A stretch of 64,000 nt of DNA from Nereocystis luetkeana (taxonomy: Eukaryota; Sar; Phaeophyceae; Laminariales; Laminariaceae), in assembly GCA_031213475.1 (NCBI GenBank), contig JARUPZ010000005.1, positions 2,697,732 to 2,761,731 on the forward strand. Reading direction: 5' to 3'. The translations under genes were made by a program, and so were the position numbers. This document shows, in pieces, positions 2,365-55,162 of this stretch (position 1 is its first letter; each line of letters begins with the position of its first letter). The notes beneath the pieces were generated by a model. That model ran no database searches and had not been told where the DNA came from. It was given only the letters and a program-made list of their open reading frames with translations.

Positions 2365-2469
2365 TTACGGGGGGGCATAGTTAACAAGACCAAATATTGT
2401 TGGTAAAAATTGTTAAACATATAGGTTTTTATGTATACCATAGGTCCTGTTAACTATGGCCCCCCGTAA
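2365..2469. mobile_element. MITE-1 copy, 105 bp, abutting an Era splice donor
   Basis: Family MITE-1 is about 105 bp with terminal inverted repeats (ACGGGGGRCCATAGTTAA), ends in TTACGGG/CCCGTAA, and has a conserved AT-rich core. It has no coding capacity. This copy begins four bases into the Era-like intron that follows exon 4, on the minus strand. Confidence 0.9.
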
Positions 2470-2473
2470 ATAC

Positions 2474-5400
2474 CTTCGTGGTGGAGAATTCTGTCTCGAA
2501 GAGGTCTGTGACGAACAGGATGGCGTCGGCGTCTCCCATGGCCTCCTCCACAAAACTCATCATGCCCTCCTGCGCACAAGAAAAGGAAAAAGGAAAAAAA
2601 AAGGAAGAAATGCATTTTCAGTCGAGTACCTGGTATTTAGCTTATTCACCCGGGTATTTAAAGTGGCGTGGCAGCAACGTCTACACCACCAGCACCACCA
2701 ACACCGACCCACTATCACGATGGCCCCTAGTATATAGGCCAAAAACGGGGAGGGAAAGGCTTCCTAAAGTACATATGAAAAATATAAATGCAGCACCGAT
2801 GGAAAGCCTAACATCGACCGCGTGTTTGAAGCAGACAACATTTTCGATTCACGCAGTGGTTCCTGAGAAAAACACGCACCAAAGGATGTGCTGTGGGCCT
2901 TATTGGGGGGGCATGTTTGCCACGACCCTCCGTGATAGCACCAATAAACAAACATACATCTTCACCAACACTAGCAACAACAGCAGCAGCATCACCAACA
3001 ACAACAACAGCAGCAGCATCACCAACAACAACAACAGCTGCTACCACCACCGCAACCAACTACAACAACAACAGCAACAGCGAGCACCGTTAGCACCACT
3101 TTGTGCTCCGGTAGACCTCAACGCCGTGCACTTACCGTCAACTATTAAAAGTATTCTTGGGCGCAGCAAGACCTCTTCTAGGTCTAACATACGATATTTA
3201 GTAAGGGGGCAACAGACGATATTTAGTATAGGGGGCGGTCAGGCAAGGGGTCGAAACTCCAGTCTCCTAAATACCTGGTAGCATATTTGCTTACCGTAGG
3301 CATGAGGGTATCGCAGCCAGCTACGCTGCGCAGCCCTATAAGCCCCAGACTGTTGCCATTAACCAGAATCACATGTAAAAAAATGAAACGCCTTCGATAA
3401 CGGCGTGGCGTAGCCCCTTACTCTCTGCAACTATCCCGCGCTCAGTTGTGCGTCCTCCGCTATCATACATCAAGACCCCCCCGTCCCCGCTGCCGCCGCC
3501 CCTCTCCTCTATCCCACCCCCCCCCCTTTCCCCCCCCCCCCCCGGCCAACCACCCTTCCCCCCCCTCCATAGCCCTGACCGAAAAGCCTCACGTGCAGCA
3601 TGTACGCGGGCGTGAGCACCCCGGGTGTGTCCTGGTAAATCATCTGGAAGTCGTCCCCGGTCATAATTCCCGTGATGCGGTGGCGAGTCGTCCCCGCCTG
3701 CCCAACGTTGACAAAAACGCCAAAGACGTTAGGAAAACATCATATGTTGTTGAAAAATTTAGATTGGGTGGGCGGGCGGGGGGTGGGGGGGAGAGGGTTG
3801 GGGTCGGGTCGGGGTGGGGGGGGGGGGGGGGGCAGGACAGGTCGAGGTCGGGGCTGGGGGTGCACTCGATAGGAGAGATGTACTCGATATCATGCATGGC
3901 CGTAGTCGTGTGACCATAGACCCTCGCATCCCTACAATGCCGGGACGGAGCGGGGGGGGGAGGGGGGGTACCCACTATCATGCATGGCTGTAGTTATATG
4001 GAAATAAAGCGGGGTAGCGGAAGGGTGAGGAGCGTTGCCATGGCCAATTTCGCACATCGGAATTCGGACCAATCAGCGCGCGAGGTAGGTGTCTCCCAAA
4101 ATCCGTTAATATATTAAGCATGTTGACCAAAAGAGGGGGGAGGGGGGGGCTTCCTGCTAGAGCGGAGGGTTCCTGTCGAGTAGGAATTGCGCCCAGACTA
4201 CCAGGATGACAACGTGTCCCACAAACTCGTCGAGCACTCGGGCGTTGATCGCCATGAGACACCACAGCAAGCGCAAGCACACGCCGCCCACGGCTAGCCT
4301 CCGACGAAAACCTTCCTGGCAACCGAAAACCAAAATGCGGATAATTCCTCTTTTCCCGGATTCAACTCGAAATCAAAAGGCCTCTGGGCGAGGGCTTGCT
4401 ACCCACCGTGTTCTAACTATGATACCGCGGTAAAGCAGAGGTGGCCTTCGTTTGGGCTGGCGCCTACAGGTGTGCGAAGTATGCACGAACACAGCCACCC
4501 CGCTGGATGACGCACGCGCGCGCAAATCTCATGCTTTTCTTGTAGAAACCCCCACCCGAAAACGGCAGCGGCACCGACGACGACTGCAGCGGCAGCAGCA
4601 TCGACCATAAAAGCACTGGCAACGACGACTGCATCGACAGACAGCGACAGCGATCACGGCAACATCAGCAACAACACCACCACAACAACGACAGCTCCGT
4701 ACCCCCCCACCCCCTCTAGTAAGATCCGCCCAACACCTCACGGTGCTTCGCGCTTGGTGCAAGCAATGTCCGTCTGGTCGGTGAAAACCCAAAGCACTCC
4801 GTCCCGGCATTGAAGGGATGTGAGGACCTATCGTCATACGACTACGGCCATTGCATGCTAGTGAGTGCCCCCGCCCGGACACGACTACGGCCATGCATGA
4901 CACGAGTCCCCCCCCCCCCCCCCCCTTCCCCGGACCATGGGTTGCCGCGTGCCGTTCGGCTCTCCCAGGTCTAACCTTCGGGGTGACTATGGAGAGCCTG
5001 TCTCCGATCATGTTGTTCATCAGCGTGCTCTTCCCGACGTTGGGACTGCCGACGATGGTCACGTAGCCCGTCCTGAACCCGTCGGGGACGTCAGAGTGAT
5101 CGATGTGCTCCGTCTCCGCCAGAATCTTGTCGAGATCTAGCATCTGCCCCGGCCTGTCCAAAAACGCCCCTCTGATCTCCTCCAACTCTTCTGGCAACTC
5201 CCCGTAGTCGTCATCGTACTCTCCCTCCTCGTCGTCGTCCTCCTCTTCTTCCTCCTCCTCCTCGCTCCCCGCCGTCGCCTCTCCCTCGTCTTCGTCCTCC
5301 TCCTGTTCCAAAGCCGCGTCGTTTATCCTGCCGGTGTCCGATTCGGCCGCCGTATCGCTGGAGCTGATCTCGAGGTCCTCGGCATTTGCTGACGAAAACA

Positions 5401-8400
5401 GCGAAGGCGTTCGCGGCCCTCTTCTTCGTCGGCCACTGCTGTTCGCGAAAGGGCGGAGGGAGACGGGGGGGGGGGTGGGGGAGGGAGAGGACGGGGAGGG
5501 CGGGGGGGGGGAAGAACGACAGGCCGACAGACAGGCAGACAGATAGGCCGCCAGACAGACAGATAGATAGACAGACAGGCAGGCAGACAGACAGATGGAC
5601 AGACAAACCGACAAGCGGGCAGACAGGCAGAGAGAGACAGAGAGGCGGGCGGACATAGCGTGTTCAAGGCTACATAGCCCTGATGGAATGCCGGGCAGTC
5701 AGTAGGTTACTGCTGTAGTAATCCGTTCCTCTTTCGGATGGGCGGGGCCGAGTGGCCGAACGTACTATCTGCAACGTTACCTGGCGCGCACCTGAATACA
5801 TCGAGAGTCGATTCTACTGACAGCACTCGAGTTGGAGATGCAGAAAAACGTAAATTCAATACGATTTGTATGTACAGCAGGAAAGTGAGTATACATGTAC
5901 GGCCTACATGGTACCAAAGGGGATCAGTGTGCCAGGTGGGCCTCCGGCGGCTCCTGCGGAGGCCTGATTATATTTCTGCACCACTATTTGGGAGCAGGGT
6001 GTCAAATGGGATGGGGCCAGGGCGGGGTCAGAGCACCAAACGGGAACGGGTGGCTAGGTGGTGAAAACATACGCGCAAATTTTTCCGCCGGTGCTTAGGT
6101 TGTGCTGCAACGCAGGGACTTATACTGTAGGAAACACTGCTGTGGCGCGGTGCGTACGTGGTGAGTACCGGCACGTGTGGCATGTACCAGTCGTACGAGA
6201 AACGGCGGCAGGCAGCAGGCAGCAGGCAGCAGCAGCCTCGTATGTGCTCCCTTCCCCTCAATTTCAAGAGCATGGGTACGAGGTACCGTCCGTTTCTGAC
6301 GGGATCAAGGTACGGGCGTAGGCCCAGACCAATTCCCCTGGCCCAAAACCCTAACCGGACCCAAAACGGGCCAGAACACAGGCCAGAAACGCGCCTGCGC
6401 CGCTTTTTATTTTTATTTCATTAGTCCGAACCGTGGACCACGATTTCCCCCCCTGAAACTAATAGTGAGTTTAAATGTACTGGAGACTCCATGCCGGATG
6501 TTTCCGGACGATAAAGAATACCAGGTGGAGGTACTTATATAATCCGCAAGGACCTCCATCGACCCTTCGCCCAATCCCAGCGGTCGAAGCCTCAACCCTA
6601 CGAGTACGAGCACAGCAGTACGTCTTCGTGCAGTAGCATTGTACCTGGTAGAGTATACACACGGCATTGGCGCTACAACAGTTTAAGCACCTCAGCCACA
6701 GTTGGACCAGCATGGTCAATCAAGATGGTAGACCACAACAACCACACGCAACAGCAACACGTGCCGCCGATGCTGCTGTCTTCGTGGCCGCCACCGCCGC
6801 CGTCACCGCCGGAGAAGCAGCAGCAGCAGCAGCAGCAGTGTGAAAATGAGCGTGGTTCCGCAAGCAACGCAACTCCGGGCCCGTTGCTTGTTGCGACGTT
6901 ATTGGAAGTGCAATCGTTTCACACCTAGGACAGATCAGATATCATTTTTGGGATTTAGATATTCTGGGGCAGATAGATCCCTGATCTACAGGGATCTGCG
7001 GGATCTAGATCATGTTTGCTGTATAGGATCTGTGTGATTTAGATCCTATGTACACGTCTGTCTGGGTGGGATCTGTATGATTTAGATCTTACGTACATGT
7101 TTCTGTGGGTGGGATCTGTATGCTCCAGATCTTACACACACGTTTGCCCGGGCATGATCTCTGTGATTTGCCTGATCTGCACATCTTTGACTGGTGATAT
7201 ATATATGATCTGCGAGATCTAGATCATATATGCCTGGAGGGATCTGCATGATCTAGATTTTACATACATGTTTCGCCAGGTGGGATCTGCATGATCTAGA
7301 TCACACATACATGTTTCGCCAGGTGGGATCTGCAGATCTGCCTGATCTGCACATGTTTCAAAAAGTGGGATCTGTATGATCTAGATCTTACATACATGCT
7401 TCGCCAGGTGGGATCTGTATGATCTGGGTGATCTGCACACACATGTTTGCCAGGTGGGATCTGTATGATCTGCGTGATCTGCCACATTGTACTCCCAGAT
7501 GAAGATGTATATGTCTTGTTTGCTCGCGGGTGATTATATGCGTTGGTTCGTGTATATCGGAACCGTTGTATACGAGATCTGACATACATTGACGACATCG
7601 CAGTCCACGGTGGTGGTGGCGGCTAGCAGCTCAAGCTCCCCCCCATCAACCACACAGTAGAGTTGAACCCCGTCTGACTGAGAACCGGGTACCCGGTGGC
7701 GGGTACCCGGAACCGTCGGAACCGGAACCGTCCCGGTCCAACTTACGGAACCGCGGGTATTTGTACCCCGGGTACCCGGGTACCCCGGTACCCGGCGACC
7801 CGTCAATTGTTCTATACGGAGGCCCCAAGACTGGGGTATACGTTGATATACACTCCAGCGGCTGTGCCTCTAGACTCTCGCCTCTCGCCCCTGCAGACTA
7901 CGGACCGAGAATAGAGAATGCCCCTTATAATACCTGCCTTGCGTACCACGCCGCCGCTCCAAAGCTACAAGGGGAGCAAATAGTGTATGGTAACCCGGGT
8001 ACCCGGGTGCCCGTGTCCACCTTACTACGCCGCCGCTCAAACTCTAAAAGGGTAACCCGGGTACTCGGGTACCCGGGTACCCAGATACCCGTGTCCGCCT
8101 CATCCGCTACCGCTCAAACCCTAAAAGGGGAGCAAATATTGTATGGTAACCCGGGTACCCGGGTACCCGGTTCCGGTTCCGCCTCAACCGCCCCCTACCA
8201 GGTCGGGTACCCGGTTCCAAATTTTGAGGCCGGTGTGCAACTCTACCACACAGCCACAACTGCACAAGCATGCCGTCGCTTACAAACCACGTACGGCATG
8301 ACAACTATCGGGGGTGGCAGCTCTGATAGTGGCACTGGGGCAGCAGATGATGTCGGCAGCGGGCCGGAAGTGGGTTCCCCGGCGGATCCCGGAGGCGAAC

Positions 8401-9408
8401 CGATCGAGTTGGATCTTAAACACACATTTGGCCGTGTGCGATCTGTATGATCTAGATCGTACACACACGTTTGCCCGGGTGGCATCTGTATCATCTAGAT
8501 CTTACATACATGTTTCGCCAGGTGGATTCTGCATGATCTGCGTGATCTGCACATGTTCGCCAGGTGGGATCTATATGATCTGCGTGATATGCACATGTTT
8601 CACCACATGGGGTCTGTATGATACAGATCTTGCATACATGTTTGCCCGGGGATGATCTGTATGATCTGCCTGATCTGCACATGTTTGCCTGGTGGGATGT
8701 ATATGATCTGCGGATCTAGATCATATATTCCCGGAGGTATCTGTATAATCTAGATCATACATATTTCGCCAGGTGGGATCTGTATGATCTAGATCATACA
8801 TACATGTTTCGCCGGGTGGGATCTGCAGATGTGCGTGATCTGCACATTTTTCAGAAGGTGGGATCTGTATGACCTGCCTGAACTGCACATGTGTGCCGGA
8901 TGGGATCTGTGTGATCTGCATGATCTGTACATATTTCGCCGGGTGGGATCTGTATGATCTAGAGCTTGTGCACAACTTTTACGTATCTGTGAAAAAGGAT
9001 CTAGATGATCTAGATCGTGATCTGTCCTAGGTGTGAATCGTTTGGATGTTCCGCCCGCCCCTCTCCTCTTCAAAGTCGCCATCACAATGCCCACCGCACA
9101 CCCGAAGACGACAGGCAACCAATCTACCCAGGATTCAACCTACACCACCCAAGCCATGTATGTGCCTCCACTCACCCGGCAGGGCTAGCAAGCCACCCCG
9201 CCGCCCGGTAGGGAGCCGCCGCCTCCGCCGCCGCTGTCGCTCTGTGAGGCGCGCCTCCAGCAACATCAACTGCGCTGCTGACCGTGGGTCGGCCGCGCCG
9301 GCAGCTCCGAGAGCCTTGGCCTTGTGAGAAGGCGAAGCCTTGCACCCGGCAGGCGCAGAGCAGGCAAGACAACGCCAGGGCCTTGGTCAACTGAGACATC
9401 ACGTGCAT
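2474..9408 (-). CDS. era: Plastid-targeted Era-like GTPase (3' end beyond window)
   Basis: Era GTPases bind 16S rRNA and assist small-ribosomal-subunit assembly; the presequence points to the plastid. Four exons join in phase on the minus strand: 9408-9176, 5438-4976, 3697-3593 and 2569-2474, giving 299 residues so far. Exon 1 encodes a signal peptide ending near VQGF and an arginine- and alanine-rich transit peptide; the ATG at 9399 is an alternative start. Exon 2 adds a Glu/Asp-rich linker, then the G1 loop GSPNVGKST (about residues 207-215). Exon 3 holds switch I (TTRHRI) and G3 (DTPG, about residue 255). Exon 4 holds the helix and strand after switch II ([12 protein letters not shown]). 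NKxD and the KH domain are not in the window. Linking exon 1 to exon 2 rests on matching phase (GG plus C), strand and targeting logic. The 3.7-kb intron 1 carries a 2.1-kb nested transposon. Confidence 0.8.
2965..3085. repeat. CAA/CAG microsatellite in an Era intron
   Basis: Interrupted trinucleotide run of CAACAG and CACCAACAAC units between Era exons 3 and 4. It creates long but meaningless open frames. Confidence 0.8.
3889..4006 (+). repeat. Dispersed repeat family R3, truncated copy
   Basis: R3 in full is about 200-230 bp: CATGCATGGCCGTAGTCGT, a 'ccctcgcatccctacaatgc' segment, a 'ttttcaccgaccaggca' segment, then a tail reading 'gagtcgcatg'. It usually sits beside a poly(G) or poly(C) run. 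This copy keeps the first 80 bp, then a G-run and a second CATGCATGGC start. Confidence 0.75.
4735..4900 (-). repeat. Dispersed repeat family R3, minus orientation
   Basis: Reverse-complement R3 copy inside Era intron 2, immediately followed by a C-run of about 15 at 4909-4925. Two CATGC starts occur in tandem at its 5' end. Confidence 0.75.
5505..5655. repeat. GACA tetranucleotide repeat near an Era acceptor
   Basis: A run of GACAGACAG-type units in Era intron 1, about 70 bp beyond the proposed acceptor of exon 2 (exon starts at 5438 on the minus strand). On the transcribed strand it reads CTGTCTGTCTG and runs into a C-rich tract, so it may double as an extended polypyrimidine tract. Confidence 0.75.
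6920..9035. mobile_element. Satellite-filled transposon (family TE-A), complete copy 1
   Basis: Both ends carry the 14-bp inverted repeat CACACCTAGGACAG and are flanked by an exact 8-bp duplication, AATCGTTT (6912-6919 and 9036-9043). The interior has two arrays of degenerate 40-50-bp units rich in GATCTAGATC, GGGATCTGTATGATC and ACATGTTTCGCC, around a less repetitive core (about 7555-8440). I see no transposase, so it is non-autonomous. Its 8-bp duplications suggest hAT-type (or P-type) transposition; that class is inference. It lies in intron 1 of the Era-like gene and itself contains a second element at 7658-8245. Confidence 0.85.
7658..8245. mobile_element. hAT-like MITE nested in TE-A copy 1
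   Basis: Termini are TAGAGTTG and CAACTCTA, flanked by the 8-bp duplication CCACACAG (7650-7657 and 8246-8253). The uninterrupted core of the other TE-A copy (34600-34860) shows a single occupied position here, confirming insertion. TAGAG-type termini with 8-bp duplications are typical of hAT elements. The interior is built of GGTACCCG/CGGGTACC units, so it is also satellite-filled. The open frame across it is not a gene. Confidence 0.85.
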
Positions 9409-9901: not shown

Positions 9902-12900
9902 ATGCAGTCAGCCTTCCTCGCCGCCGTGCTCTCCCTCCTCTCGGTGGTGTCCACCGATGCTTTTGTGCCGGGTGCTGCGAGGCTTCCTGCGCAGACATCT
10001 GGGTCGCGATGCGGAACCGGTGAGCTGACCGATCATATGGGCTAGTGTAAAGAGGACGCATCTGTCTCCCCCAAAAAATACGAACACTTTGTGCAAGCAG
10101 AACGTCCCTGAGGACATCGCTCAGGAGTTGGTCTTGTCTCGGGCGATGCTGCTGCAGGAGCACGAGATGATTCGGGAGGTGTCACTTTGCACACCTCATC
10201 GCAGGCTACAGGGTACAGGGTAGGCATGGAGCTATTCTGGCAGCTGGCAGCTTACGTATCGATGTTCATGACTCGAAGTTCGACTTGTCTGGTGATATTT
10301 TGTTGTTTGGTCGTGTCCAAGAGGGTACGGTTCTCGAGCTTCCAGGTACCAGGGAAGGTACGTACCAGGTACCAGGTATTATACAGGTCATGATGCCAGT
10401 GCGCTGAATACGTGGCCCACGTGCAGAGTTGCGATACAGCAGTGTCAGGCTCCGGGCGTCGTCCCCTCGCTTTCGGTGTTTAATTCGCGCACCAACGAAT
10501 GGACGAAGCTATGATGATGATATCTACGCCTGTTGTGACAGCCGCCATCGCTCTGCCGTTGTCTGTGCTGCCGCTCCATGGTGCGGTGTGCCGGTATATG
10601 TGAGCAGCCTCGGTGGCGATGAGCGCGGAGCCGACGTCGCGGAAGGCCCTCCTCCAGCAAGGTGCGTTCTTCCCGTATGTATCATACCAGGTATATTTGT
10701 ATCGAATTATACTTACGTCCCAATCGACATACCTGGTATCTGATACTGGTACGACGTAGCAACTTGGCCGCACAAGGCCCGCTGCCCGCCAGCTGCAGCC
10801 AAGCATCAGGGGGGGCATGATGCCATCATCGAAATCGTTTGCTGTACGTACAGATACCAGGTATGTATATACGTAGTCGTGTTTTCCCTGAGAGTCGGCG
10901 GTCACTATTGCATATGCTTCAGCTGTCAACATGGGAAAAAACCAATGTCGAAACATTATCTTCGCACAGCTGAGCAGTACCATCAGCAGCAGCGTCACGC
11001 AGGGTATACCCGTTCGGATGTATCTCACCAGGTACAGCGTACAGCAGTATCATACATACCTTGTTCACGCGAAACGTGAAAACGTTAAAAACTGGCTCAG
11101 ACGTCAAATCAAACTTCAGCGCAAGTCGCACAGATAGATCATCTCCAGATAGATCATCTAGATTCTAACCTGCCGTTTTGAGTTGTTGTGCGCGATCTGT
11201 TCAGAGTGCAGATCCAACACAGGAAACTTGCCCCGGAAGATGAGCAGGTTTTACGGCTTCCACCCGGCAACACGAGTCACGTATGTAGGTCACACAGATC
11301 AGGAATCTACTACCAGGTACTGTATAATAGTACCGCTGTGTCTGTTCTGAAATACCTAGACCCAGACCATGAAGCGGGAATCGGTGATCTGTCTGATATA
11401 TCTGATCTGTCTGATTTGTCCGAGGTGTGAACAATTTGGAACCCAAGAGGAAAGACCACGAAAATGAAAAGTGCGCCTCGATATACTGCACTTATTACTG
11501 GTACCCCTATACCCTGCTATTTATAGGTTTATCAAGCGTTGAAGGGTGAGCGATCTGCCGCGCGAGCGGGTAGTATACGAAAGTGATCGTCATGCTGCAG
11601 GCGTGTTATACACCACTCACACCTTGATTAGTGTGTCGTATATATAAACACGTTGCTCGGATGCCCACCGTTGTTGTTGCTGTTTTTTTTTGTTGCTGCT
11701 GTTGCTGTTGTGGCTGTTGATCTCACGCTAGCTCGCTGCCGCAGGGTAGCTCGAGGCCATGACACAGGAGCAGGCGTCACCCCCTACAAACTTACCAGTA
11801 CGGATAGCCGTGTGACCACAAGCCCAAAAGCGCGTGGCTGGTATTCACATAGATGTGGTCAACACCATCCGTCTATAGACCGAAAGGGCGTGACGTATAG
11901 CTTCAGTGCTTGTAACGAATACCGACTCGGCCCAGCTTCCACAAAACGATTTGTCAACCAAACCAACCACACCTTGGACAGATAATTTACAGATCATGTG
12001 CAGATCATCAGTTCCTACAGTTCATGGTCCAAGGCAGATATATTCGCATTCCTGTATGATTTTAGCTCATGTTGGCGGGTCGGACCCGTATAATCCGCAC
12101 GACTATTGCGCCTGTGTCCTGTGTTGGGTCTGTGCCCGTATGCAGATTCTGCACTGCCTCTCACAACGGCAGCCGAGGAATTAGATGATCTACTGTAGAT
12201 AGATATATCATGATCTCCCCGAGGCGTTGAGCCAACACTATTTTAACTCTTCATCCCATCTTCACTGCGATAATTTTCCAAGGCGGTCGGGCTCAACTCT
12301 TTTCGAACCGCGATGAACATACACGTAAATAAGACTCTCAATTCCAAGCCTTTGTTCCCCACAACGAGAGTCCTGTCCTCGGGGTTGAGTTTAGAGTTGA
12401 CTCTACGTAATCCATTTTGTCGAAGACTGTGCCAAGTGGCAAAAATCTGTCGGTCAGTCCGTCAGTCGACAGCGTCACAGGTCGATCGGCGGATCAGTCG
12501 GTCGGTGGGAGGGTCTTTCGACGGCTGTTCACCCGTTTGCAAGACGCCAAGAAACGGAAGCACCGACCTTGGGCCTATAGGCCAGAAGAGGCAACAACCA
12601 AAACAAGCACACCCTCGTCCTCTCTCTAATGACCGAGCGGGGCGCCCGTACACGCTCTGCAGTCGTGTTTTTCGATATTCGATGGGTTTTGTTTGGCGTT
12701 ATTGTTATGGCTGTTGTGGTTGTTGTTGATGGTTGTTGCTGCTCGTTCTGTTTGTCGTCCTCCCTCGAGGCCCGGCAGGCACCGGCCACCCAAGTAAACG
12801 AACTCCCTTCGAGGCGTGCGGCTTAAAACCGGTCAAAGCTGATTTGAAACAGATTGAAACCGATTTGAAACTTGTTCGGAACCGTTTTTTGAAGCCGCTG

Positions 12901-15900
12901 GAATCGATTCAACACCGTGTGAGATCAATCCGGATTTGGAGCGGTTTTGAAATCAGTTCCAGACCTCAATATGTTTTTTTCACCACGCCCACCCATTCAA
13001 AACCTTTTTGGAACCGATTTGAAACCGAATGGAAACCAGTGTGAAACCGATCGTATGCCACCAGCAGCGTCGTAATCTCCTTGGTCCTCTCGACTCTGCA
13101 CGGCAAAGCGGTCGTCGTCAAAAGCGCAGTGTGTGTCGCGTGTATCGCAGGGCGCAAGCAATTCCGCGCTAATACAGTGACGCTTGTCTGAACAAGAAAT
13201 ATCTGTGGGTAAATATCGTGGGCGTCAAATGTCGATGTTGGTACAGTATGAGTTATTGTTTGTTGTTGTTCCGACCATAGTGTCTGTTGGTGTTGGTCTG
13301 GGTTCTTGCATGTTCATATGGATGATTACTCCTTTTACGACCCCAGTTTACGTACTTTGTCCCCATATATGGGGCTGCGGTACTAAAAGGGTTGAACAAA
13401 GTATAGAGATGTGAACATGGAGGTTGACACAAGTGTCTGTGTGTCGTTGATCTGGTGGGTGTTGGCCTTTTTCTTGGCGTGAACATTGTTCTGAACATCG
13501 GCCCGAAATTTAGATATGCTGTATTCCTGGTAAACAATAGGGGTGTCGATGTTGACGTGGGTGTTGATAAGGAAGATTATGCAATATTGATGCCGTTTAA
13601 ATGGGCATACCGGTGCGCAGCCCAATATCCCCCCGCTCCGTCTCGAAAGGGACGCCTGGTCAATGGTCAAATGACTTAAATACACAACAAATGAGTACCC
13701 CCCCCCCCCCCCCCCCGCCCCTCCCAACGTAACGCCTCCTCCCCTCTCTACCAACAGGTGTGGCTGTCCTGGCAGGACTTGCCGTAGCCACACCGCCCGC
13801 GTCGGCTGGCCTATTCGGCGGAGAGAAGAAGTGGGCAGGGGTGAGTGATTTCTGCACACATCGGGGACAGATCACGATCTACCCTAAGATCCATCTTAAT
13901 AGACAAGTTACAGTTGCCGTTATCAGATGTTGTGCAAGATCCTTATCACAAACAGATCTCACCCATGCATGTGCGCAAGATCTGTGTCAATACAGATCCC
14001 ACGCGTGAAGGCTGATCTAGGCAGTGCAGATCAAACCCTCAAATCGGGGATCTGTCTCCCTCTCGAGATATCTAGATCACTACATACGGCGAAAGAGCGC
14101 TCAATTCGCTCGGGGGTGCGCTCGATTTTTTCCCCACAACGAGAATGTTTCCAATGGCGGACGAGGTAGCGTTTTTTTTTTTTTTCGGAAAGATGTGGGC
14201 GAGAGCTTTCCGAAAATGTAATAGTTCGACTTTTAGAGCGCACCCTTGCACCGTGTTCGAGGAAAATAGCGCTGGAAAACGATAGCATCGCCCCTGTTCG
14301 ACCTCCTCTCTCTCTTTTTTTCTTTTTTTTTTCCGTGTGTACATCATGGTGAAAACGGGGATCTGATCTGTCCCCGGTGTATTAAATTATGTACTACGTA
14401 CAGGTCGGAAACGATCTATAATACGTGTACAAATACACGAGTACAAGACTCTATTATTTCCGAACACTTGCAGGAAAACCATCTCGGAGGTGTGGAAGGG
14501 GTGTTGTACTGTTGTTCATGCATGGTCGTTGTCGTACGTACGACCAATAGACCTCGCATCCGTATATACAATGCCGAGACGGAACACGTCGGCTTTTCGC
14601 CGCCCAGGCATACACTGATTGCTTGCACCAAGCGCGAAGCGGGGCGCGAAGCGTGGCGCGAGGTACCGGGCGAGTCGCATGAATGACGAGCTGCATCCCA
14701 CCTACAAAGAGCCGCTCCTGAGGCGGGCTTTCTTGTATGGATAACATCTTCGAAGTTTTTTTTTTTTGCTGGTGTGGTGGAGGGGAGGAGGGGGGTGGCT
14801 GTGCCGCCTCTTCCCCGCAGGATAGGATTGTGTCGTGTCTTAGATGCGAGGAATTGACTGCTGGCTCGTTGGATAGATTTTGTGTACTACTGCACTAAGT
14901 TGAAAATTGGCAATGTTTTGTTTTTTAACATGCGATACGTTTGCATGTTTTAGATGCACTTGCCTTGCCTTGCCTTACCTTACATATTGCCCGTTACCTG
15001 TTATCTATTCCCTGTCACTTATTTCTGCGTTCCCCGTTCCCTAATACCTGTTATCTCTTGCGTTCCACTTCTTACCTACAATAGTTCCGGTTACTTACCA
15101 GGTCCCTATTACCCGTTTCACATCACCTGACGCATGTTTCACAATACCTCCTTCCTGATACGGTTTGACCATAATTAATACCTGGTAGGACCAAATTTTG
15201 TTAGTAGAAATAGTTAAATATATAGGTTTTTATGTATACGACAGGTCCTATTAACTATGGTCCCCCGTAATAGTACCTCTCACCTATTCCCTGCTGCGTA
15301 TGACCTCTTGCATGTTGCACGTTTCCTTCTCCCTTTCACTTGTCAACTTTTAGCTACAAATTATTACCTGTTTACGTCTTACGCGTTACCTACACATACC
15401 CGTAACCTGCCCCCTATTTCCTCTTGCCGATTATACACTATCTGTTACATCTTGCGTTACCGCAGGTGCTCGTTTCTTGTTGCCTAGTACCGCAACTGTT
15501 GATGCACCTAATTCATGTCGTATCTGTTACCTGCTGTATCACTCTCTACCTCTTACATGTGGCCTGTTACCTCTCACACAATGCCTGTTCCCTGTTATCG
15601 AAACACTTCCAATAGGTGGTCGACCCAAGGAGCTCCGTGAATATGCTCATCTGCCTTATTACCCTATTTTTTTGTTTCCTCACCCATTTCCTCTATCACG
15701 ATACCTGTCCCCTATTGCCTGGTATCTATTACCTTACCGTACCTTGCCTTACGTTACCTTCCCCCTTTTAATAGGTGATCGACCCTCGAAGCTCTGTGAA
15801 GGACGCGGACAAGCTGGCGACGGACGCCGTGCAAAAAGACATCGCGGCGCTTAAGAAGTACGAGGCTGCGACCAAGGACATTTCCGCGGCATTGGTCAGT

Positions 15901-18837: not shown

Positions 18838-20861
18838 CAGTAGTAGTAGTAGTAGCAGTAGTAGTAGTAGTAGTAGTAGTAGTGGCAGTAGTAGTAGTAG
18901 TAGCGGCAGTTACCATCACGGTGGGCCATTGTAATGAGGACCCAACATGTACACAAAGACCTACCTGGTACATACCAGGTATTAAAGTATTTTTACTCAG
19001 CATATGTGGTCCTGGTTGTTTCAATCCCCCTTGTGCGTGCTTTCTTGGCACCACTCTGTACGTTATTATAAGGAACAGTTTGATCGAAAATTATTGTACT
19101 GAAGGTTATTATATTCAGGGACATATCCGTAGTACGGTACGGGGGGGGTGTACGTTCGGGCCGAAAACATGCCTCGTTGACGGGACTCGCCTTTGTGAAA
19201 AACTAGCCATCACAGAGGGGAGAGGGGCTACGATTTAGGAGATGGTGTCGATTTAACCCCCTTAGTACTCCAGTCCCGTTTTGGGAACAAACAGTCTAAT
19301 TCCAAGTAATTTGTCCCCAAAACGGGACTGCATTCCGAAAAGGGTAGATAATTGCAAGGGCTTTAGAGAGGGATTAGATGGCTTGACACGGGCGTACTAA
19401 AATATACCAGGTACGTATATATGCCCAATCTGGCTTGAAGATAATTGCCGGTCCTTTGGGGTACTTCGTTGGCCGCCTGAGGTGTTCTGATTCACCTGGT
19501 ACCAGGCATCGGATCGAAGAGGCGTGGAATGGCTTGGTGCGGCTATACTCGAAGCTGTGTAGCACTTATTCTGGTTCAAGGAAAAATACCACCATGTCCC
19601 GAAATATAGGGGTAATTTCTATATTAATGTTGAACCAAAACGGTCATTATATTTAGGTACAGAGCGGTACAGGTTTAGAGCATTTTGGAGGCCTGACTCA
19701 CCCACCCCCCTCTTGAATCGTAGCCCCCTCTGCATACTTTTTAGTTATATCCTGGTAGTCCCGTTTTGTGTGTTGCAATAGTACACGCCTCGGGCAGACA
19801 GCTCATGATCTATCCATCTGTCTGCAGATAGATCGTCTAGTTCCTCACCGGCCCTTCCGAGAGGCTGTGCACCCTGCAGACCCAGCCCAAGAAACATGCT
19901 CTACAGACAGTAGAGATGACGCAGATCATACGGGTCCCACCCGGCAACACGAGCTGTACATGGTACAGATCACGACAGATCTGGAACAGATCTGCCCTCA
20001 ATCGATACGCTGACGATCATGATGAAGGAAGAATCGATCTTCTGCCCGAGGTGTACAGTATCATTCGTCGTATACATCAGCCCTGTGATTGTTCATGTGC
20101 TTGAGCTTACAAGGATATGGTCAACAAGCTTGTGGTGAGGGGGGGGGGGGGTAGAGCTCTTCAGGTGGAGGTAAAACGTTCACACGTCAGACAGATGGAT
20201 CATCTACAGATGGGTCAGATATATCATCTAGATCCTTTAATCTGCCGTAATGACGTGTTCCAAGCAAGATCTGTATACTGTAGCACAGACACATCCTACT
20301 GTAGGTCCTGCAGATGATATGGCTCCCTCCCCGTCACGTTCGCTGGATTGCTCGCTAGATTGTACAGATCAGGGATATATCTGCTCTTGAAATATCTGGA
20401 TCGAGTATCTAGATCGCCTGCAGATAGATTATGGACATATTTACCATCTACAGATACAACTAGATCATCTAGATGCCAACCTGCCGTTCTCAGTGCTGTG
20501 CAGGATCTGTATGGTACGGATACAACCCATGAAACATGTCCTAGATCCTGCAGATGATAGGGCTCCCACCCGGCAACATGAGCTGGATCATACAGATCAT
20601 ACAGCTCAGCGATCCATCCGCCCTATAAGGTCTTGGTCATAAACTGTGGAAGCTGCTGATTTTCCCGAGCTGTGCAAACGTGAGAAAAAAGTAGCCCCTC
20701 CCTCCCCCTCCCGGATGAACACCATGTCCTGTTGTGGCATGCCTCACGTATGTTTTGTTTTGTTTTTTGCTGTTTGCTTGTGTCTTGTGCAGGTCGAGAT
20801 TGTGAAGAAGAAGTTGATGAAGCTGGAGCAGGCGTTCGTGAGCCTAAACGCCTTCCTATAG
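9902..20861 (+). CDS. Thylakoid-lumen four-helix protein, PsbQ/Psb31-like
   Basis: Six exons join in phase: 9902-10019, 13758-13840, 15775-15894, 16533-16666, 18673-18748 and 20793-20861, giving 199 residues. Residues 1-20 are a signal peptide ending at DAF, followed by a short transit peptide. Residues 41-56 form a hydrophobic thylakoid-transfer segment ending in PASA, so the mature protein starts near GLFGG. The mature part (about 143 residues) is helical, charged and without cysteine. The third-helix pattern (FNMAEFRSTLNGV) and the C-terminal Lys-rich helix suit PsbQ/Psb31, extrinsic PSII subunits that stabilise the oxygen-evolving complex; this family call is from pattern memory. There is no twin arginine. 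The stop in exon 6 looks premature compared with the duplicate at 20958-21057. Intron 1 is 3.7 kb. Confidence 0.8.
11139..11429. mobile_element. TE-A related fragment
   Basis: GATC-rich unit ending with GTCCGAGGTGTG, a variant of the TE-A terminus, followed by AACAATTT. The left terminus is not recognisable, so this is a truncated or diverged copy in intron 1 of the lumen-protein gene. Confidence 0.5.
11976..12222. mobile_element. TE-A related fragment
   Basis: Shares the 'cagatcatgtgcagatcat' and 'gatgatctactgtagatagata' segments of the family and ends near CCCCGAGGCG. No clean termini or target duplication seen. Confidence 0.4.
12835..13045. repeat. Degenerate GAAACCGATTT repeat
   Basis: Irregular tandem units of about 11-20 bp (GATTTGAAAC, GGAACCGATTTGAAACC) in intron 1 of the lumen-protein gene. 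No coding signal. Confidence 0.6.
13329..13394. mobile_element. MITE-2 copy, internally deleted
   Basis: Family MITE-2 is about 95 bp, a near-perfect foldback with termini CCCTTTTAGAACCGCAGTCC and the inner arm GTTTTGGGGACAAA. This copy lacks about 30 bp of the left arm. Confidence 0.75.
13628..13715 (+). repeat. Dispersed repeat R4 ending in a C-run
   Basis: R4 reads CGTCTCGAAAGGGACGC, TGGTCAATGGTCAAATGACT, then 'acaaatgagta' and a run of about 18 C. This copy ends just before the acceptor of exon 2 of the lumen-protein gene, so its C-run may act as the polypyrimidine tract. Relatives are at 51930-52000 (plus) and, reversed, at 33485-33545 and 44550-44605. Confidence 0.7.
13855..14380. mobile_element. 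TE-A relative with diverged termini
   Basis: Left end ACATCGGGGACAGATCACGA and right end GATCTGTCCCCGGTGT are inverted repeats related to those of TE-A. I see no clear target duplication. It starts about 15 bp after the donor of exon 2 of the lumen-protein gene. Confidence 0.55.
14512..14745 (+). repeat. Dispersed repeat family R3, near full length
   Basis: Includes the 3' tail 'agagccgctcctgaggcgggctt' that most other copies lack, so this copy is a good reference for the family. It lies in intron 2 of the lumen-protein gene. Confidence 0.8.
15159..15272. mobile_element. MITE-1 copy carrying TACCTGGTA
   Basis: The left terminus is worn (TACGGTTTGACCATAATTAA). Between TTAA and GGACC the sequence reads TACCTGGTA (15179-15187) instead of the family's TA, a 7-bp insertion. 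Confidence 0.85.
16709..16803. mobile_element. MITE-2 copy, intact foldback
   Basis: Both arms are complete and nearly perfect inverted repeats around a short ACTTGAAGTTTGAGTGC-type loop. It lies about 40 bp after the donor of exon 4 of the lumen-protein gene. Confidence 0.9.
16868..17858. mobile_element. Approximately 1-kb element with 20-bp exact inverted repeats
   Basis: TGGGAATGGATTCGTTTTAG at 16874-16893 is repeated exactly in reverse complement at 17834-17853. Extending outward, the left end reads CAGGGATGGGAATGG and the right end is similar, which resembles hAT termini. I cannot find matching 8-bp flanks. It splits a 'gctgactgagtaggctactg' minisatellite in intron 4 of the lumen-protein gene. 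No transposase is seen. Confidence 0.65.
17859..18245. repeat. Minisatellite, about 50-bp degenerate unit
   Basis: Seven or eight copies containing GCTGACTGAGTAGGCTACTG and a 'ttatcccttc' spacer. One or two further units lie left of the inserted 1-kb element at 16805-16867. Confidence 0.75.
18780..18912. repeat. GTA trinucleotide microsatellite
   Basis: Starts about 30 bp after the exon 5 donor of the lumen-protein gene. Long (GTA)n interrupted by GTG and GCA. The Ser- and Val-only frames across it are artefacts. Confidence 0.9.
19254..19346. mobile_element. MITE-2 copy
   Basis: Arms are diverged at the extreme ends (CCCCTTAGTACTCCAGTCC against ACTGCATTCCGAAAAGGG) but the GTTTTGGGAACAAAC arm is preserved. 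Confidence 0.85.
19795..20626. mobile_element. Cluster of TE-A related GATC-rich fragments
   Basis: Several partial units with CAGATAGATCATCTAGATCC and 'ctcccacccggcaacatgag' segments, in intron 5 of the lumen-protein gene. It appears to be at least two overlapping copies, without intact termini. Confidence 0.5.
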
Positions 20862-33435: not shown

Positions 33436-36400
33436 TCAAGGGGTGGGGGGAGGGATGAGAGGGAGGGGGGGGGCGAGGCGTATTCATTCGTTGCTTTCCT
33501 TTGCCATTCAACCAAGGACCACGAATCCCTTTCGAGACGGAGCACCGTTCTTACTCCCAATAGAGGCACCTGCAACAGGTGGGCGCTCAATATTATTTTC
33601 CATATAATACATGAAAACTGAGAGGGAGGGGATGGGGGACGAGAGATGGGTAGGGGAGGGTAGGGGGGGGTGAATCAGAGGGCAAGGAGGAAGAGAACGA
33701 GGGGGGGGGGGGGGGGGGGGGCGAAAAGAAGGGAGACGAGAACGGGCCGGGAGGGGGGGCAGGAGCTGATTGATACGTGAGGTTTTCCGGTACATGTGGA
33801 TGATTTCCAATGTAAACCATCCCCAATTTTCCCCTCTCCCTATTTCGGCAATTTTTCACTCTTCCCTAAGTCGTCGGCATGTTGCTGTCGTAGTTTATAG
33901 CGGAGCCTGTCTGTTGTAGATATCGGGTCCAACGCTCTTGTCTTGACATGCAATCCCCACACCCCTATGTGCGTCCAGTTGTTGGTATGCCTCCAATACA
34001 TACTACCGGTGAAATCGCTCGACGCATGGGATTGGTTTGCCAGTGTGGCGGTAGCCGCTATAATGCCGCTATTACGCGGGACCATAGTAAATAGAACCCT
34101 ATATACTTCGCTATTTTCACTAACAATATTTCACACCTAGGACAGATCACGATCTAGATCATCTAGATCCTTTTTCACAGACACGTAAAAGTTGTGCACA
34201 AGATCTAGCTCATACAGATCCCACCCGGCGAAACATGTGCAGATCATGCAGATCACACAGATCCCATCCGGCAAACATGTGCAGTTCAGGAAGATCATAC
34301 AGATCCCACCTTCTGAAACATGTGCAGATCACGCAGATCTGCAGATCCCACCTGGCGAAACATGTATGATCTAGATCATACAGATTCCACCCACCGGAAC
34401 ATGTATGTAATATCTAGATCATACAGAACCCATCTGGTAAAACATGTGCAGATCACGCAGATCATACAGACCCCACCCCTGGCGGACATGTGCAGATCAC
34501 GCAGATCATGCAGAATCCACCTGGCGAAACATGTATGTAAGATCTGTAGATGATACAGATCCCACCCGGGCAAATGTGTGTGTACGATCGAGATCATACA
34601 GATTGCACACAGCCAAATGTGTGGGCAATATCCAACTCAATCGGTTCGCCTCGGAGATCCGCCGGGGAACCCATTTCCGGCCCGCTGCCGACATCATCTG
34701 CTGCCCCAGCACCACTATCAGAGCCCGCCCCCGACAGTTGTCATGCCGTACGTGGTTTGTAAGCGACGGCGTGCTTGTGTGGCTGTGGCTGGGTGGTTGA
34801 TGGGGAGGAGCTTGAGCTGCTAGCCGCCACCACCACCACCGTGGGCTGCGATGTCGTCAATGTATGTCAGATCTCGTACAAAACGGTTTCGGTATACACG
34901 AGCCAACGCATACAATATAAGCATACATGTACATCTTCATCTGCGAGTACAATGTGGCAGATCGTGCAGATCATACAGACCCCACCCGGCGAAAAATGTA
35001 TGTGCAGATCATACAGATCATGCAGATCCCACCTGGCGAAAGATGTATGTAAGATCTAGATCATACAATTCCCACTTTATGAAACATGTGCAGATCACGC
35101 AGATCTGCAGATCCCACCTGGCGAAACATGTATGTATGATCTAGATCATGCAGATCCCACCCACCGAAACATGTATGTAAGATCTAGATTATGCAGATCC
35201 CTCGAGGCATATATGATCTAAATCTCGCAGATCATATATCTCTCACCAATCAAACATGTGCAGATCAGGCAGATCACACAGATCATGCGCGGGCAAACGT
35301 GTATGTAAGATCTAGATTATATATATCCCACACACCGAAAATGTACGTAAGATCTAGATCATACAGATCCCACCCAGGCAAACGTGTACATAGGATCTAG
35401 ATCGCACAGATCCTATACAAAAAACATGATCTAGATCCCGCAGATCCCTGTAGATCCGGGATATATCTGCCCCAAAAGATCTAGATCCCGAAATGGGATC
35501 TGATCTGTCCTAGGTGTGCAATATTTGGTCCCATTTAATATGATCCCCCGTAATAGACGGGCCTGGCACATACCGGCACTATAGCGGCAACCGACACTAC
35601 TGCATCCTTACTTACTGAAACGTCAACGTACCGTATCACACTATCACCCGTGTGATAAGATGACACCATCACCCGTGTGATAACATGACACTATCACCCG
35701 TGTGACAACATGACACCATCACCCGTGTGATAACATGACACTATCACCCGTGTGACAACATGACACTATCACCCGTGTGATAAAGCACTATACCTCATGC
35801 GGTAAGACAACACTATCACCCGTGTGATAAAAATAACACTCCCCCTCGAGCGAATTAAAAAGGCTGCTTTTCTCGAGAAAGGGGAAAAGAGTGTAAACGC
35901 CGAGCGACGCGTCTCCATGTTTTTTTTTTTCGACGAGATATTTCCAAAGCCACCATTTTCGTTATGTGTGGCCCTTAACCCTTTTAGGACTGCAGTCCCG
36001 TTTTGGGGACCAACTACTTCGAATTTGACTGTTTTCTCCCAAAATGGTACTGCGGTTCCAAAAGGGTTAAGGCCCGTTTTGGAGGAAATGAATCGGCGCC
36101 ACAAAATCGTCTCAGGGAAAAAAAAACGTTTTTTCTTGTAGGGGTGTGTGTTATCTTGGGTGTAGGTGCACGGTACGAACGTATGTATATATATCCCATC
36201 ACCTTGACATGCTAATATAATATATAGGAAACCCACACTTTTGGGCTCGCAAGGCCTCTATTGGCCGAGTTTCCACCGGGCTTGAAGCAAGGGGACCGTC
36301 AGTCATGGGGTAAAAAAAAGTGCCGTCTCCTCCTGAAACGGGGGACCATAGTAAATAAGACCAAATATTGTTAGTAAAAATAGCGAAATATGTAGGTGTT

Positions 36401-39400: not shown

Positions 39401-42400
39401 GCGGCAGCATTAGCCTAGCGCCTAGCTGTGCTGCGCTCCCACCGCCGCCGCCGCCGCCACCGCTACCGCTGTTACCCCTGCTACCGCTCCCGTCGCCCCC
39501 GCCGCTACCCTTGCCACCGCTATTTCCGCCGCCGCTGTTGCTTCCACTGGTGGAGTCGCCTGTGCTGCCGCCGCGCCGCGAGAGCAAGACGAGGGAGGGC
39601 GGGGCAGAGAGTGCGGCTTCCGTCGCGACCTTCGATAGCGCCGACAAGGCATCCGCCTTCTGCGAGGCGTCGCCGTCGTCGTCACCACCATCACCACCCC
39701 CACCACCACCGGCAGCAGCAGCAGCAGCAGAGGCCGGCAATCTTCTGAAAGCGGCGACGGCAAAGCTGACAAGCACCGCGGTGCCGGGCAAGGAAAGCCC
39801 TTCGCACCCCCCCCCCCCAACCGAACAACAGACCTCCCGCGCCCTCTCCACCACCTCCGTGGACAGCGGGTACCGGCTCCTCGCCAGCGAGGAATCACCG
39901 CCACCACCATCGCCTCTCCCGATGAAACCCCCCGAACCGCTCCCCGCAAGGGTTTCCGCGTCGAGTACGGCGTCTGCGAGGGCCGGGGCTGCGAGAACCG
40001 CGAGCAGCTCCGCCGCCTCCCCGTCGTCTTCAGAGGCTGCCAATGCGTCCAGGATGCGCCAGACACCGCCCCTTCCGGGCGACGGCGGCAGGGCTGCCTC
40101 CGCCGCCGCCGCCGCCGCCGCCGCCCGTTCGGCTTCCGCTGCTGCCTCGGCTTTGGCAGTAGCGGCAGCAGCAGCGGCGGCGGCGTCTCTTTTTCGCTTC
40201 GTGCTTCCACCTCCCCCCCCTTTACTGCTGCTGCTGTTGTTGTTGTTGCTGCTGCTGGTGCTACCGCTGGTAGTGGTGGTGGTAGTGGTGTTGGCGGCGT
40301 CGGTATTGCTGGTGTTGGCGTCGGTGACGGCGGTTAAGGTGGCGGCGGTGATGCGAGCGACGGCTTCCACGTGCATGAGCGCTAATATTAAGTCTACCGC
40401 GATGGTACGAAGGATGGGGCTTCTCCCACCACCACCAGCACCGCCACCAGCAGCACCACCACCACCAGCACCACCACCACTATAGGGTGACGTCAACGAC
40501 AAAGACGACGAGGAGGAGGAGGAGGAGGAGGAAGAGGAACAGGAGGAAGAGGCTCGGAGGGAGGACAGGACGATGTTCAGAAGAACCGTGGTGTTCTTAG
40601 GCCCTTGCGAACTCGAGGAGGGGGAGGTGGCGGCGGCTGCGGCGGTGGCAGGGTCGATGTCGAACAGGAAAGCTTTCAGCGATTCCCACAGCTCGGTTGA
40701 CGGCAAGTTTCCGGTGACCTTCGCACCAAACACACATCAAGACACACGCAACGAACACGCGCAACAGGGAAAGGGCGGGAGACGAGGGCGGCAGCGGCGC
40801 GGGGGTCGTCTCCGCTCTGAGTCGAGTGAAGGGGGTAAGGAAAAAACACACATGGGACAGATAGATCATCTACAGATAGATCATGATCTACAGTAGAGGA
40901 TCTACTCCCCCACCTACCGTTGTGAGAGGTTGTGCATGATCTATCTGTGTGGTACAGATCCTACCCAGAACACACGCGCTAGATAGTGCGGATTATCCTG
41001 GTCTCACCCGGCATCATGAGCGAAACAATACAGATCAGTGACTATATATAATCTATCTGCTTAAAAAAATCTAGATCACCAAGTGGGAGTCCATGATCTG
41101 TGGATGATCTGTCTGAAGATTTAGAATTTCCAGAATATCTTCCTCTGTGTCGCGGGCCGCCACAAGATTAGGCCTGGTCGCCGTGGCTGGCTAGCGCACA
41201 GTTTTTCACCCTTTTGACGCTATAGGGACTTCAGAAAAGAGTAAGTGACGATTGAAACTCGACACCCATAGCACCAATCTCACGAAGAAGCGCGGCCTGT
41301 TGGCCTCGGGAATGGTGGCTTAGATGTCCCAAGCACGAATCAATCCGTCACACAGACAGATCATAAGGTTATCACCTCATGATCTAGATATTTCAAGGGA
41401 GATATATTCGTGATCTGTATGATCTGTACAGTAGGATCTGTATGATCTAGCTCATGTTGCCGGGTGGCAGCCGCGTAATCAGCATGATCTAGCTCGTGTT
41501 TCCTAGGTGTGATCTGCACTTTGCAGGTCGTACACAATACAACATCTCCCAACCGCAGGCTCCAACCCAGCTCTAACAATAGGTGCGCAATCTATGGAAG
41601 GAAAAGGGCCGTCGAGTACGCGAGGGGTGGTGGCAGCACCGAGAGCGGGAGGCGTTTTCACCCTCTTCCCCCCATACTATCGGAAAAGAAGAACCGTCAG
41701 CAAAATGCACACGGAATCAAATCTTAAAGAGGGGGGTACAAAATCGTTGAACCTCACCTAAAAAAAATGAACAGAAGCAGTGAGCTACTCGTACTGCTGC
41801 GAGCTCACACTATCACGGGGGAGCATAGCAACACAGAGTGATCCAAAGCAATACATAGCATTAGTAACACATGGTGATACCTGGTAAATATCTGGTGTTG
41901 ATAGTACATATTACGGGGGGCCATAGTTAATAGGACCAAATATTGTTAGTAAAAATGATTAAATATATAGGTTTTATGTATACCATAGGTCCTATTAACT
42001 ATGGCCCCCCGTAATAGTAATACACTAACTGTAATCGGACCCCATGATGGATACCAGGTATCTTTCCGAGTTTACAAAGCATGTTTGGTTCAGATAAAAA
42101 TGCCCCCCCCGTACTCGTATATTCAGGCGAATGATTAGACCGCACTGGTGACGGGTTGATCGCAGTAATGTGGGCCCAGAACGGGTGAATATGAACAGCA
42201 TTGGCCAAGGGTGCGCGAGCGCCCCCCCCCCCCCCACATGCAGCATGTGAAACATGAACATATGCATTATGCCGCATGCCGCATTGTCCTCGACTACACA
42301 CCACGCCATTCCACCTCACTCCCCATCCCCACCCCCACCCCCACCCCATACCTTGGAAAGGACACCCTCAAGCAAGGCCTCAACGCCAGCACAGCCACCG

Positions 42401-54920: not shown

Positions 54921-55162
54921 CACACCTCGGACAGATCGTAGATTCCCACTTTATTATCTAAGTCTTGATCTGTATGATCTGTATGGTCTGTATGATCTAG
55001 CTCACGTTGCCGGGGGGGAGCCATATAACCTGGGTGGTCTACGGCATATTTCGTTGGTTCGATACTGTGAAGAACCTGCACGACATCTCATAACGGTAGC
55101 TGATGAACTAGATGATCTACTACAGTGGATAGATATATCCTGATCTGTCTGTTTGAGGTGTG
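54921..55162. mobile_element. Short TE-A relative (242 bp) with both termini
   Basis: Left CACACCTCGGACAG and right CTGTTTGAGGTGTG. The flanks CAAAATGC and CATAATCA agree at 5 of 8 positions, so a worn target duplication is possible. The interior has a few GATCTGTATGATC units only. Confidence 0.65.

Follow-up and report, generated by a model that had tools for sequence, protein, structure and literature searches.

Results

Two complete copies in the window

The window, the 64,000-nucleotide stretch of Nereocystis luetkeana DNA analysed here, contains two full copies of a repeated element, at 6920-9035 (copy 1) and 34132-35518 (copy 2), each flanked by a perfect 8-bp target duplication, in agreement with the original prediction. 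Copy 1 lies between forward-strand repeats of AATCGTTT (6912..6919 and 9036..9043), and copy 2, inserted the opposite way round on the minus strand, between forward-strand repeats of CAATATTT (34124..34131 and 35519..35526). Inverted termini of 14 bp had been proposed; the inversion was upheld but the length was not, as identity extended over 18 bp (CACACCTAGGACAGATCA, starting CACAC) in both copies. In copy 1 these ends occupy 6920..6937 (plus strand) and 9018..9035 (minus strand).

Most of each copy is made up of a unit of about 43 bp repeated in tandem, and the layout common to the family is an arm of about 500-600 bp, a middle of about 330 bp and a second arm of about 500-600 bp. The first arm of copy 1 (6920..7490, plus strand; period 43 in TRF) consists of forward units and contains 34 GATC and five ACATGTTT, with none of its complement; the second arm (8416..9035, plus strand), with units directed as in the first, contains 31 GATC and again five ACATGTTT and none of the complement. 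The arms of copy 2 (34132-34625 and 34959-35518, separated by a middle at 34626-34958) contain six and four AAACATGT, the complement of ACATGTTT, respectively, and no ACATGTTT. Copy 2 differs from the family consensus by a 128-bp deletion equal to three units.

The middle of copy 1 (7491..8415, plus strand) is non-repeat sequence with four GATC and no ACATGTTT. It contains a nested 588-bp element (7658..8245; ends TAGAGTTG/CAACTCTA), absent from the consensus and bracketed by its own 8-bp duplication, CCACACAG, at 7650-7657 and 8246-8253. Copy 1 had been thought to be longer through its array; its surplus of 596 bp is instead accounted for by the nested element plus that duplication. An ATG open frame at 8298..8417 (plus strand) is of low complexity, resembles exon 1 of a sister family described below (41% identity, 41 aa, to locus L061) and is broken in the majority consensus; it may be what is left of a first exon. 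Between matching ends, no transposase came to light. Copy 1 has a single 285-aa stop-to-stop frame, which passes through the nested element and has no Pfam match, and the longest such frame over copy 2 is 119 aa.

At least six diverged relatives had been predicted in the window, and about six to eight were found, none with a clean duplication. Relatives were called by pairing ends with up to four mismatches per end, and others were added by eye. The paired ends lie at 11024-11429 (flanks matching at no more than five of eight positions), 13857..14381 or 14494 (525 bp; three mismatches per end; flanks 3 of 8; GATC density 2.5 per 100 bp, compared with 0.51 for the whole window), 19784..20055 (272 bp; three mismatches per end; flanks 5 of 8), 40847..41511 (665 bp; two mismatches per end; flanks 1 of 8; GATCTAGCTC twice) and 54921..55162 (242 bp; one and three mismatches; flanks 5 of 8; GATCTAGCTC once). 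Added by eye were a relative of about 494 bp at 20181..20674 with flanks AAAACGTT and CAAACGTG (6 of 8), another from 11968 to about 12210, and a fragment at 38323-38416.

Ends, target duplications and copy number

The first 17 bp of the end were matched exactly 102 times (49 + 53) in the 465-Mb source genome, with no match for the reversed control; one-base variants added 333 matches, giving 435 ends altogether, and the exact ends listed sit on 35 of contigs C1-C40. By comparison, the end pattern CACACCTNGGACAGATC occurred in 257 Gb of prokaryote contigs in 99 stretches with one match each, about the chance expectation, against 435 in 0.465 Gb here; viral sequence gave eight stretches with one match each. 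Twenty-one copies were aligned to a single 1524-bp majority consensus (identity 86.0-97.3%). For the middle, all 40 scored matches (of 121 candidates) covered nearly the full query and represent the same short stretch.

Both ends were assigned for 24 copies, and in 15 of these the target duplications matched at seven or eight of eight bases, compared with a mean of 0.8 and a maximum of 5 when right flanks were permuted. Duplications were poorer in the other nine, among which L048 and L057 seem to be one base out of register. The inverted ends, their 102 exact occurrences and the 15 duplications therefore identify a family of DNA transposons that are non-autonomous and about 1.5 kb long. Dispersed inverted ends and target duplications together with no transposase of its own are the marks of a non-autonomous cut-and-paste (MITE/Ds-like) family, and mobilisation in trans is very probable. 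Two candidate autonomous copies were rejected. On C21, an exon match was located 3.1 kb inward from an exact end, but the element proved to be an ordinary copy some 1.58 kb long, and the exon belongs to an adjoining AGCT-rich relic; at C1:14777385, a LINE that includes reverse transcriptase makes up much of the surplus length.

Array units and a sister family

The subrepeats had been described as facing inward from both ends. This was not the case in the consensus, in the genomic clusters or in either window copy, where the units of the two arms share a single direction: in the consensus, the 43-bp unit gave 16 forward and no reverse matches when up to 16 mismatches were allowed, and a separate count gave 17 to 0; none of 35 genomic unit clusters was of mixed direction, and the best arm-to-arm match was 86% direct against 59% inverted. 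The predicted richness in GATC was borne out (86 in the 1524-bp consensus of 21 copies, 5.8 expected from shuffles), as were internal dyads in the subrepeats, TGTATGATCTAGATCATACA at 8781-8800 being by reading a perfect 20-bp palindrome.

Deletions proceed in unit steps: the lengths of 16 of 20 differ by no more than 3 bp from a multiple of 42.67, against an expected 15%. Relative to the majority consensus, losses of at least 12 bp were seen in 13 of 21 copies and gains within the arrays in five. At L027, an element of 284 bp has lost almost its whole array and keeps both ends exact, its flanks matching at two of eight positions. No array longer than an element was found among the 35 clusters, the longest span being 1,400 bp; this result covers 40 scored stretches out of 348 candidates and 150 listed matches out of 158. 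Of the proposed expandable satellite, the change of length by whole units therefore stands, and neither arrays outgrowing an element nor the suggested seeding of satellites by this family was seen in that sample.

A sister family has the ends and spacing described here with GAGCTAGCTC in place of GATCTAGATC. AGCT occurs 64 times in its element L060 (12.7 expected) and 60 times in L061 (9.9 expected), with GATC at chance in both; the unit period (42-43 bp), the ACATGTTT core and two arms adjoining the ends are kept. This family with its changed palindrome, like the target motif reported below, is new here. The start of its exon in L061, L063 and L064 continues in a frame other than that of L060, and that frame is without a Pfam match. 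The L060 frame, to which a CxC5 hint discussed below applies, is open in L063 and L064 too. A BED zinc finger, suggested by the look of the exon sequence, had no Pfam match. Among other relatives, one on C7 (nine units of 65 bp) and apparently one on C16 (four ends within about 300 bp) carry short tandem runs that take in the end itself.

Target motif and transposase superfamily

The motif nAnnnnTn was found in the target at 252 of 435 ends (68 of 102 exact and 184 of 333 variant; about 1 in 16 expected), counts that are not all independent, since some variant ends have one flank in common. The motif is close to AAAnnTTT, and its presence in copies throughout the genome, with the exact ends and duplications, bears out the prediction of a transposon family. 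Among 46 ends, nAnnnnTn occurred 30 times and nTnnnnAn never; with the TcBuster site nnnTAnnn taken position by position, T stood at position 4 in 15 and A at position 5 in 19.

Ends of hAT elements have the form YARNG; the ends here read CACAC. The 8-bp duplications and short inverted ends would nevertheless suit a Ds-like member of the hAT superfamily moved by one of the genome's many hAT genes, at least 105 hAT dimerisation domains having been found (150 of 169 candidates scored). At two loci the sister-family exon lies near such a domain (about 1.4 kb on C19 and 13.5 kb on C27), but on C19 the gene stands on the opposite strand, beside the element (L064). The suggested hAT gene with matching termini was not found: the scored hAT domain nearest to any of the 100 exact ends listed is 11.2 kb away. 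A search with a hAT-like RNase H model gave no match, and its control was likewise silent. The target motif also argues against this assignment, the preferences described in the accounts drawn on being nTnnnnAn for Hermes and nnnTAnnn for TcBuster. A hAT origin is a tentative assignment, less likely than not.

Discussion

The observations are best accounted for, with a probability of about 0.58 for the explanation as a whole, by a non-autonomous cut-and-paste family with elements about 1.5 kb long, mobilised in trans, and with arrays serving as putative subterminal transposase-binding sites. A transposase coded elsewhere would move the elements, and several of its molecules may dock on the arrays before the ends are cut. 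The middle would be what deletion left of an autonomous parent, the chance that it is a remnant of the parent gene being about even, and units would be gained and lost by slippage or unequal exchange. That the arrays are binding sites is a proposal by analogy, on which our judgement is evenly balanced. As the unit cores (TGTATGATCTAGATCATACA, ACATGT) are palindromic, the two arms could look the same to a single protein even though they are unmirrored and the units asymmetric and direct; as 43 bp amounts to about four helical turns, the sites would fall on one face. Ac transposase is described as binding cooperatively to subterminal AAACGG repeats, a repeat termed necessary for transposition, and the analogy is limited by certain Ds1 elements that lack the hexamer and still move (PMC3260210). 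Similarly, the Hermes BED domain is reported to bind subterminal repeats, but in the same account additional transposases were judged unlikely to bind deeper within the ends (PMC10368747), a further limit.

The array could instead be a passenger: a tandem repeat prone to slippage, which originated within the element and has no role in movement. In favour of this are the deletions in unit steps and the nearly array-free L027 with its exact ends, a copy that also tells against the binding-site proposal; the terminal 65-bp run of the C7 relative indicates that tandem growth does occur here. Against it, the sister family keeps the period and core while its palindrome has other letters, AGCT exceeding chance by about 50 in each of the two elements counted, and both families retain two arms adjoining the ends. 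We regard a passenger array as unlikely.

Membership of the Zisupton/KDZ superfamily is improbable. Zisupton also makes 8-bp duplications (PMC12730594), and KDZ elements are given as 1.8% of the Ectocarpus genome (PMC12477816). A weak hint came from CxC5, a cluster linked to KDZ transposases, matched at E = 0.4 by the L060 exon; the frame is probably wrong, L060 differing there by one base from L061, and this route to KDZ was set aside because of that doubt. A KDZ domain search gave no matches, though its control was silent as well.

That the ends are edge units of a long satellite and only resemble transposon ends, as a tandem repeat forming most of each copy might suggest, is refuted for the copies examined by the target duplications, the spread of listed ends over 35 contigs and the 35 clusters without an array exceeding an element, and its probability is negligible; of the two findings that would have told against a transposon, copies mostly lacking duplications and termini that are satellite edges, neither occurred.

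The family resembles Ac/Ds of maize (hAT) in its 8-bp duplications, short inverted ends, trans-moved deletion derivatives and subterminal repeats, which in Ac bind transposase and here putatively do so (PMC3260210). The Ac sites are described as hexamers lying no more than about 200 bp from each end, whereas here 43-bp tandem units run one way through each arm, and the target motif is not the one described for Hermes, which belongs to the Ac group. Like Tetris and other Drosophila foldback elements, the family is non-autonomous with internal tandem repeats of varying number; Tetris is linked to satellite DNA (PMC4079207), and here no long free satellite was seen in the part examined. In Tetris, repeats of about 220 bp are reported within long inverted ends and hence mirrored, whereas the present family combines 18-bp ends with direct arrays; long inverted ends built of subrepeats, as in a foldback element, were not found.

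CACTA/EnSpm elements have subterminal repeats, and Helentrons are rolling-circle elements. CACTA/EnSpm elements share with the present family dense repeated sites at both ends and ends that start CAC, but are described as having 3-bp duplications and CAC..GTG ends (PMC12730594), against 8-bp duplications here. Oyster Helentrons with satellite-like arrays are likewise mobile elements that spread short tandem arrays (PMC7492417), but unlike them the family here has inverted ends and target duplications.

More speculatively, and with odds well against it, the transposase may belong to a lineage outside known groups, with its own AAAnnTTT-like target rule, which assembles on long direct arrays of palindromes, arrays and protein changing together. 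If so, about 50 sites per element would have switched between GATC-type and AGCT-type across the sister families, with ends, 42-43-bp spacing and ACATGTTT core unchanged, and relatives with the outermost unit in tandem (9 x 65 bp) would represent a first step from transposon end to satellite. If the arrays are docking platforms, mobility should depend on array length. Families alike in ends and spacing and different in palindromes offer a natural series for studying how repeated sites within a transposon stay alike and switch together.

Copies in the window

Copies 1 (6920–9035) and 2 (34132–35518) lie in opposite orientation, carry identical inverted 18-bp termini (CACACCTAGGACAGATCA) and are flanked by perfect 8-bp duplications, AATCGTTT and CAATATTT, respectively, which bears out the original prediction of two full copies with inverted ends and perfect 8-bp duplications, the ends matching over 18 bp. 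Copy 1 contains a nested, hAT-like-looking element of 588 bp (7658–8245; TAGAGTTG...CAACTCTA), GGTACCCGGG-rich and placed between CCACACAG repeats that form its 8-bp duplication. By eye, the flank of a further genomic copy, L058, resembled this element near 7983; because of that match L058 was probably inserted in a relative of it, as judged from sequence. Two small contigs, C635 (18726–20412; locus L059), which repeats copy 2 with the same flanks, and C1771, whose middle is identical to that of copy 2, are probably alternative haplotype pieces.

Genome searches and target duplications

In the genome (465 Mb, 1987 contigs), which exceeds prokaryotic size, the outermost 17 bp of the terminus had 102 exact matches and the reversed control 0; variants in which base eight was C, G or T numbered a further 333. 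Since the combined pattern was found in 99 stretches of prokaryote contigs (257 Gb), one match apiece, the 102 + 333 genomic ends are far above chance. Plus and minus ends paired within 8 kb in 16 cases among the first 100 exact ends listed. These 100 ends gave 84 sites, 29 of whose regions were read (20 + 9), and duplications were scored in 24 copies: 14 from the set of 20, 8 from the set of 9, and L027 and L065. Excluded were L059, a duplicate of copy 2 with the same flanks, five loci whose partner end was not assigned (L032, L039, L042, L043 and L050), and L049, which was short with a different interior. All eight bases were alike in 8/24 copies and at least seven in 15/24, the duplication of L065 being 8/8 in sequence, and permutation of the right flanks of the 24 copies gave a mean of 0.8 and a maximum of 5 matching duplications. 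Among nine copies with poorer duplications, L048 and L057 agreed once shifted by one base.

Of 46 distinct ends, 30 had A at position 2 together with T at position 7 in the adjoining 8-mer, and 0 had T and A there. Genome-wide, nAnnnnTn flanked 68/102 exact and 184/333 variant ends (expected, 1 in 16). The variant ends are not all independent insertions, because ATACTTG adjoins the end in many of those listed, on many contigs, probably reflecting one relative inside another repeat that spread. The shared target motif suggests a single transposase type for the whole group.

Consensus and array structure

The majority consensus (1524 bp) was built from 21 copies, with the heavily deleted L038 and L027 omitted, was 86.0–97.3% identical to each, and has the order arm, ~330-bp middle, arm. 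Pairwise identity among 23 aligned copies was mostly 85–95%, obvious subgroups being absent; it was lower for L038, L056 and L027 and, to a smaller extent, for L047, L034 and L044. The same middle stretch was present at 40/40 scored places (121 candidates). Because they fit one consensus layout with the same middle, the copies must have inherited their arrays from a single master element instead of each growing one afresh.

The units had been described as facing inward from both ends. In the consensus, the 43-bp unit gave 16 forward and 0 reverse matches and ACATGTTT 17 and 0; the arms aligned best in direct orientation (86%; inverted, 59%); and a 145-nt array piece detected 35 clusters in which strands were never mixed (150 of 158 matches listed; 40 of 348 candidate stretches scored). 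The units thus run one way, and the inward arrangement is wrong. The predicted internal dyads were confirmed by the core TGTATGATCTAGATCATACA at 8781–8800, a palindrome identical on both strands, and such cores may have been the source of the inward reading.

No free array of GATC-family units was seen among these listed and scored stretches, the longest of the 35 clusters being 1,400 bp. In a relative on contig C7 (L062, C7:9973329–9974229; 71–655), the end plus ~48 bp starts nine times at exactly 65-bp steps, head-to-tail, a run best read as tandem growth from one end. In the match listing, four ends in the same direction within ~300 bp on contig C16 (3158635–3158938), flanked by AGTGTTT or ACTGTTT, are perhaps a second such run. 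On these two cases, small-scale tandem growth from an end occurs in the group. A 41-bp tandem array in the window (28910–29219; 7.5 copies, 96% alike) has no relation to the GATC family.

Deletions of at least 12 bp relative to the consensus (20 listed) were spread over 13/21 copies, and 16/20 differed from a multiple of 42.67 by no more than 3 bp (expected, 15%); this unit-length test was made on deletions. There were 17 insertions in six copies, one being the nested element of copy 1 and the remaining 16 lying in L034, L036, L037, L055 and L056. With insertions in five copies besides copy 1, the arrays both gain and lose sequence. One copy, L044 (961 bp), is array throughout, its middle gone, and keeps a perfect duplication, CACCCTTT.

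Sister family

Two AGCT-type elements, L060 (3313 bp; clear duplication absent) and L061 (2504 bp; perfect duplication AAGGGTTT), share the end CACACCTCGGACAGATC and have two direct arms of a 42-bp unit with ACATGTTT, AGCT replacing GATC. AGCT occurs 64 times in L060 (expected, 12.7) and 60 times in L061 (expected, 9.9), with GATC at chance. Distinct ends of this type numbered 14, a fifteenth belonging to another type, and a half-way form, GATCTAGCTC, is present at three window positions that belong to neither copy 1 nor copy 2 (41444, 41486 and 54994).

By eye, the middles of L060, L061 and two further members, L063 and L064, contain an apparent first exon with start codon, a GT...AG intron and a second exon, with a frame extending in L064 to ...QRWFCACSNGNQDYIPI. 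The exon search gave 24 matches at 21 loci, with a sister-family end within 2 kb at 5/21 and within 6.1 kb at a sixth, LINE-bearing locus; no Pfam family fitted the exon in the frame thought right. A short frame of copy 1 (8298) was 41% identical to the first exon over 41 residues, both being Gly/Ser/Asp-rich, and is broken in the majority consensus. L063 (C1:14777360–14784700) also holds a LINE that inserted into the element, seen as a 1227-aa open frame (925–4608) encoding an endonuclease and a reverse transcriptase domain.

Transposase candidates and proposed mechanism

With 150 of 169 candidates scored, the hAT dimerisation domain occurred 105 times in the genome; the shortest distance from such a domain to any of the 100 listed exact ends was 11.2 kb. 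Genome searches with KDZ and hAT RNase H models gave 0 matches, as did their controls. The best transposase lead is on contig C27: an exon match there has a 268-aa frame and is followed, 13.5 kb further along the same strand, by a hAT domain. In the window, a minus-strand open frame (4529–5698) holds a stretch that may, to judge by its motif, be the opening segment of an Era-type GTPase.

Mobile elements with internal tandem repeats, or ones that spread such repeats, are already known, among them Tetris (PMC4079207) and oyster Helentrons (PMC7492417). A non-exhaustive literature search found no DNA transposon with short inverted ends, two direct arrays and palindromes switching between sister families.

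By analogy, the arrays are putative subterminal transposase-binding sites, our preferred reading, to which we give a probability of about one half. In two established systems, Ac transposase binds repeated AAACGG sites cooperatively (PMC3260210) and Hermes BED domains bind subterminal repeats (PMC10368747). A simple transfer from these systems is weakened, because some Ds1 elements without hexamers still move (PMC3260210) and, for Hermes, additional transposases binding deeper within the ends are considered unlikely to matter (PMC10368747). Unlike mirrored termini, the arms here are direct, so the mirror symmetry of the two ends stops at 18 bp; for the arrays as binding sites, the palindromic cores would remove this difficulty.
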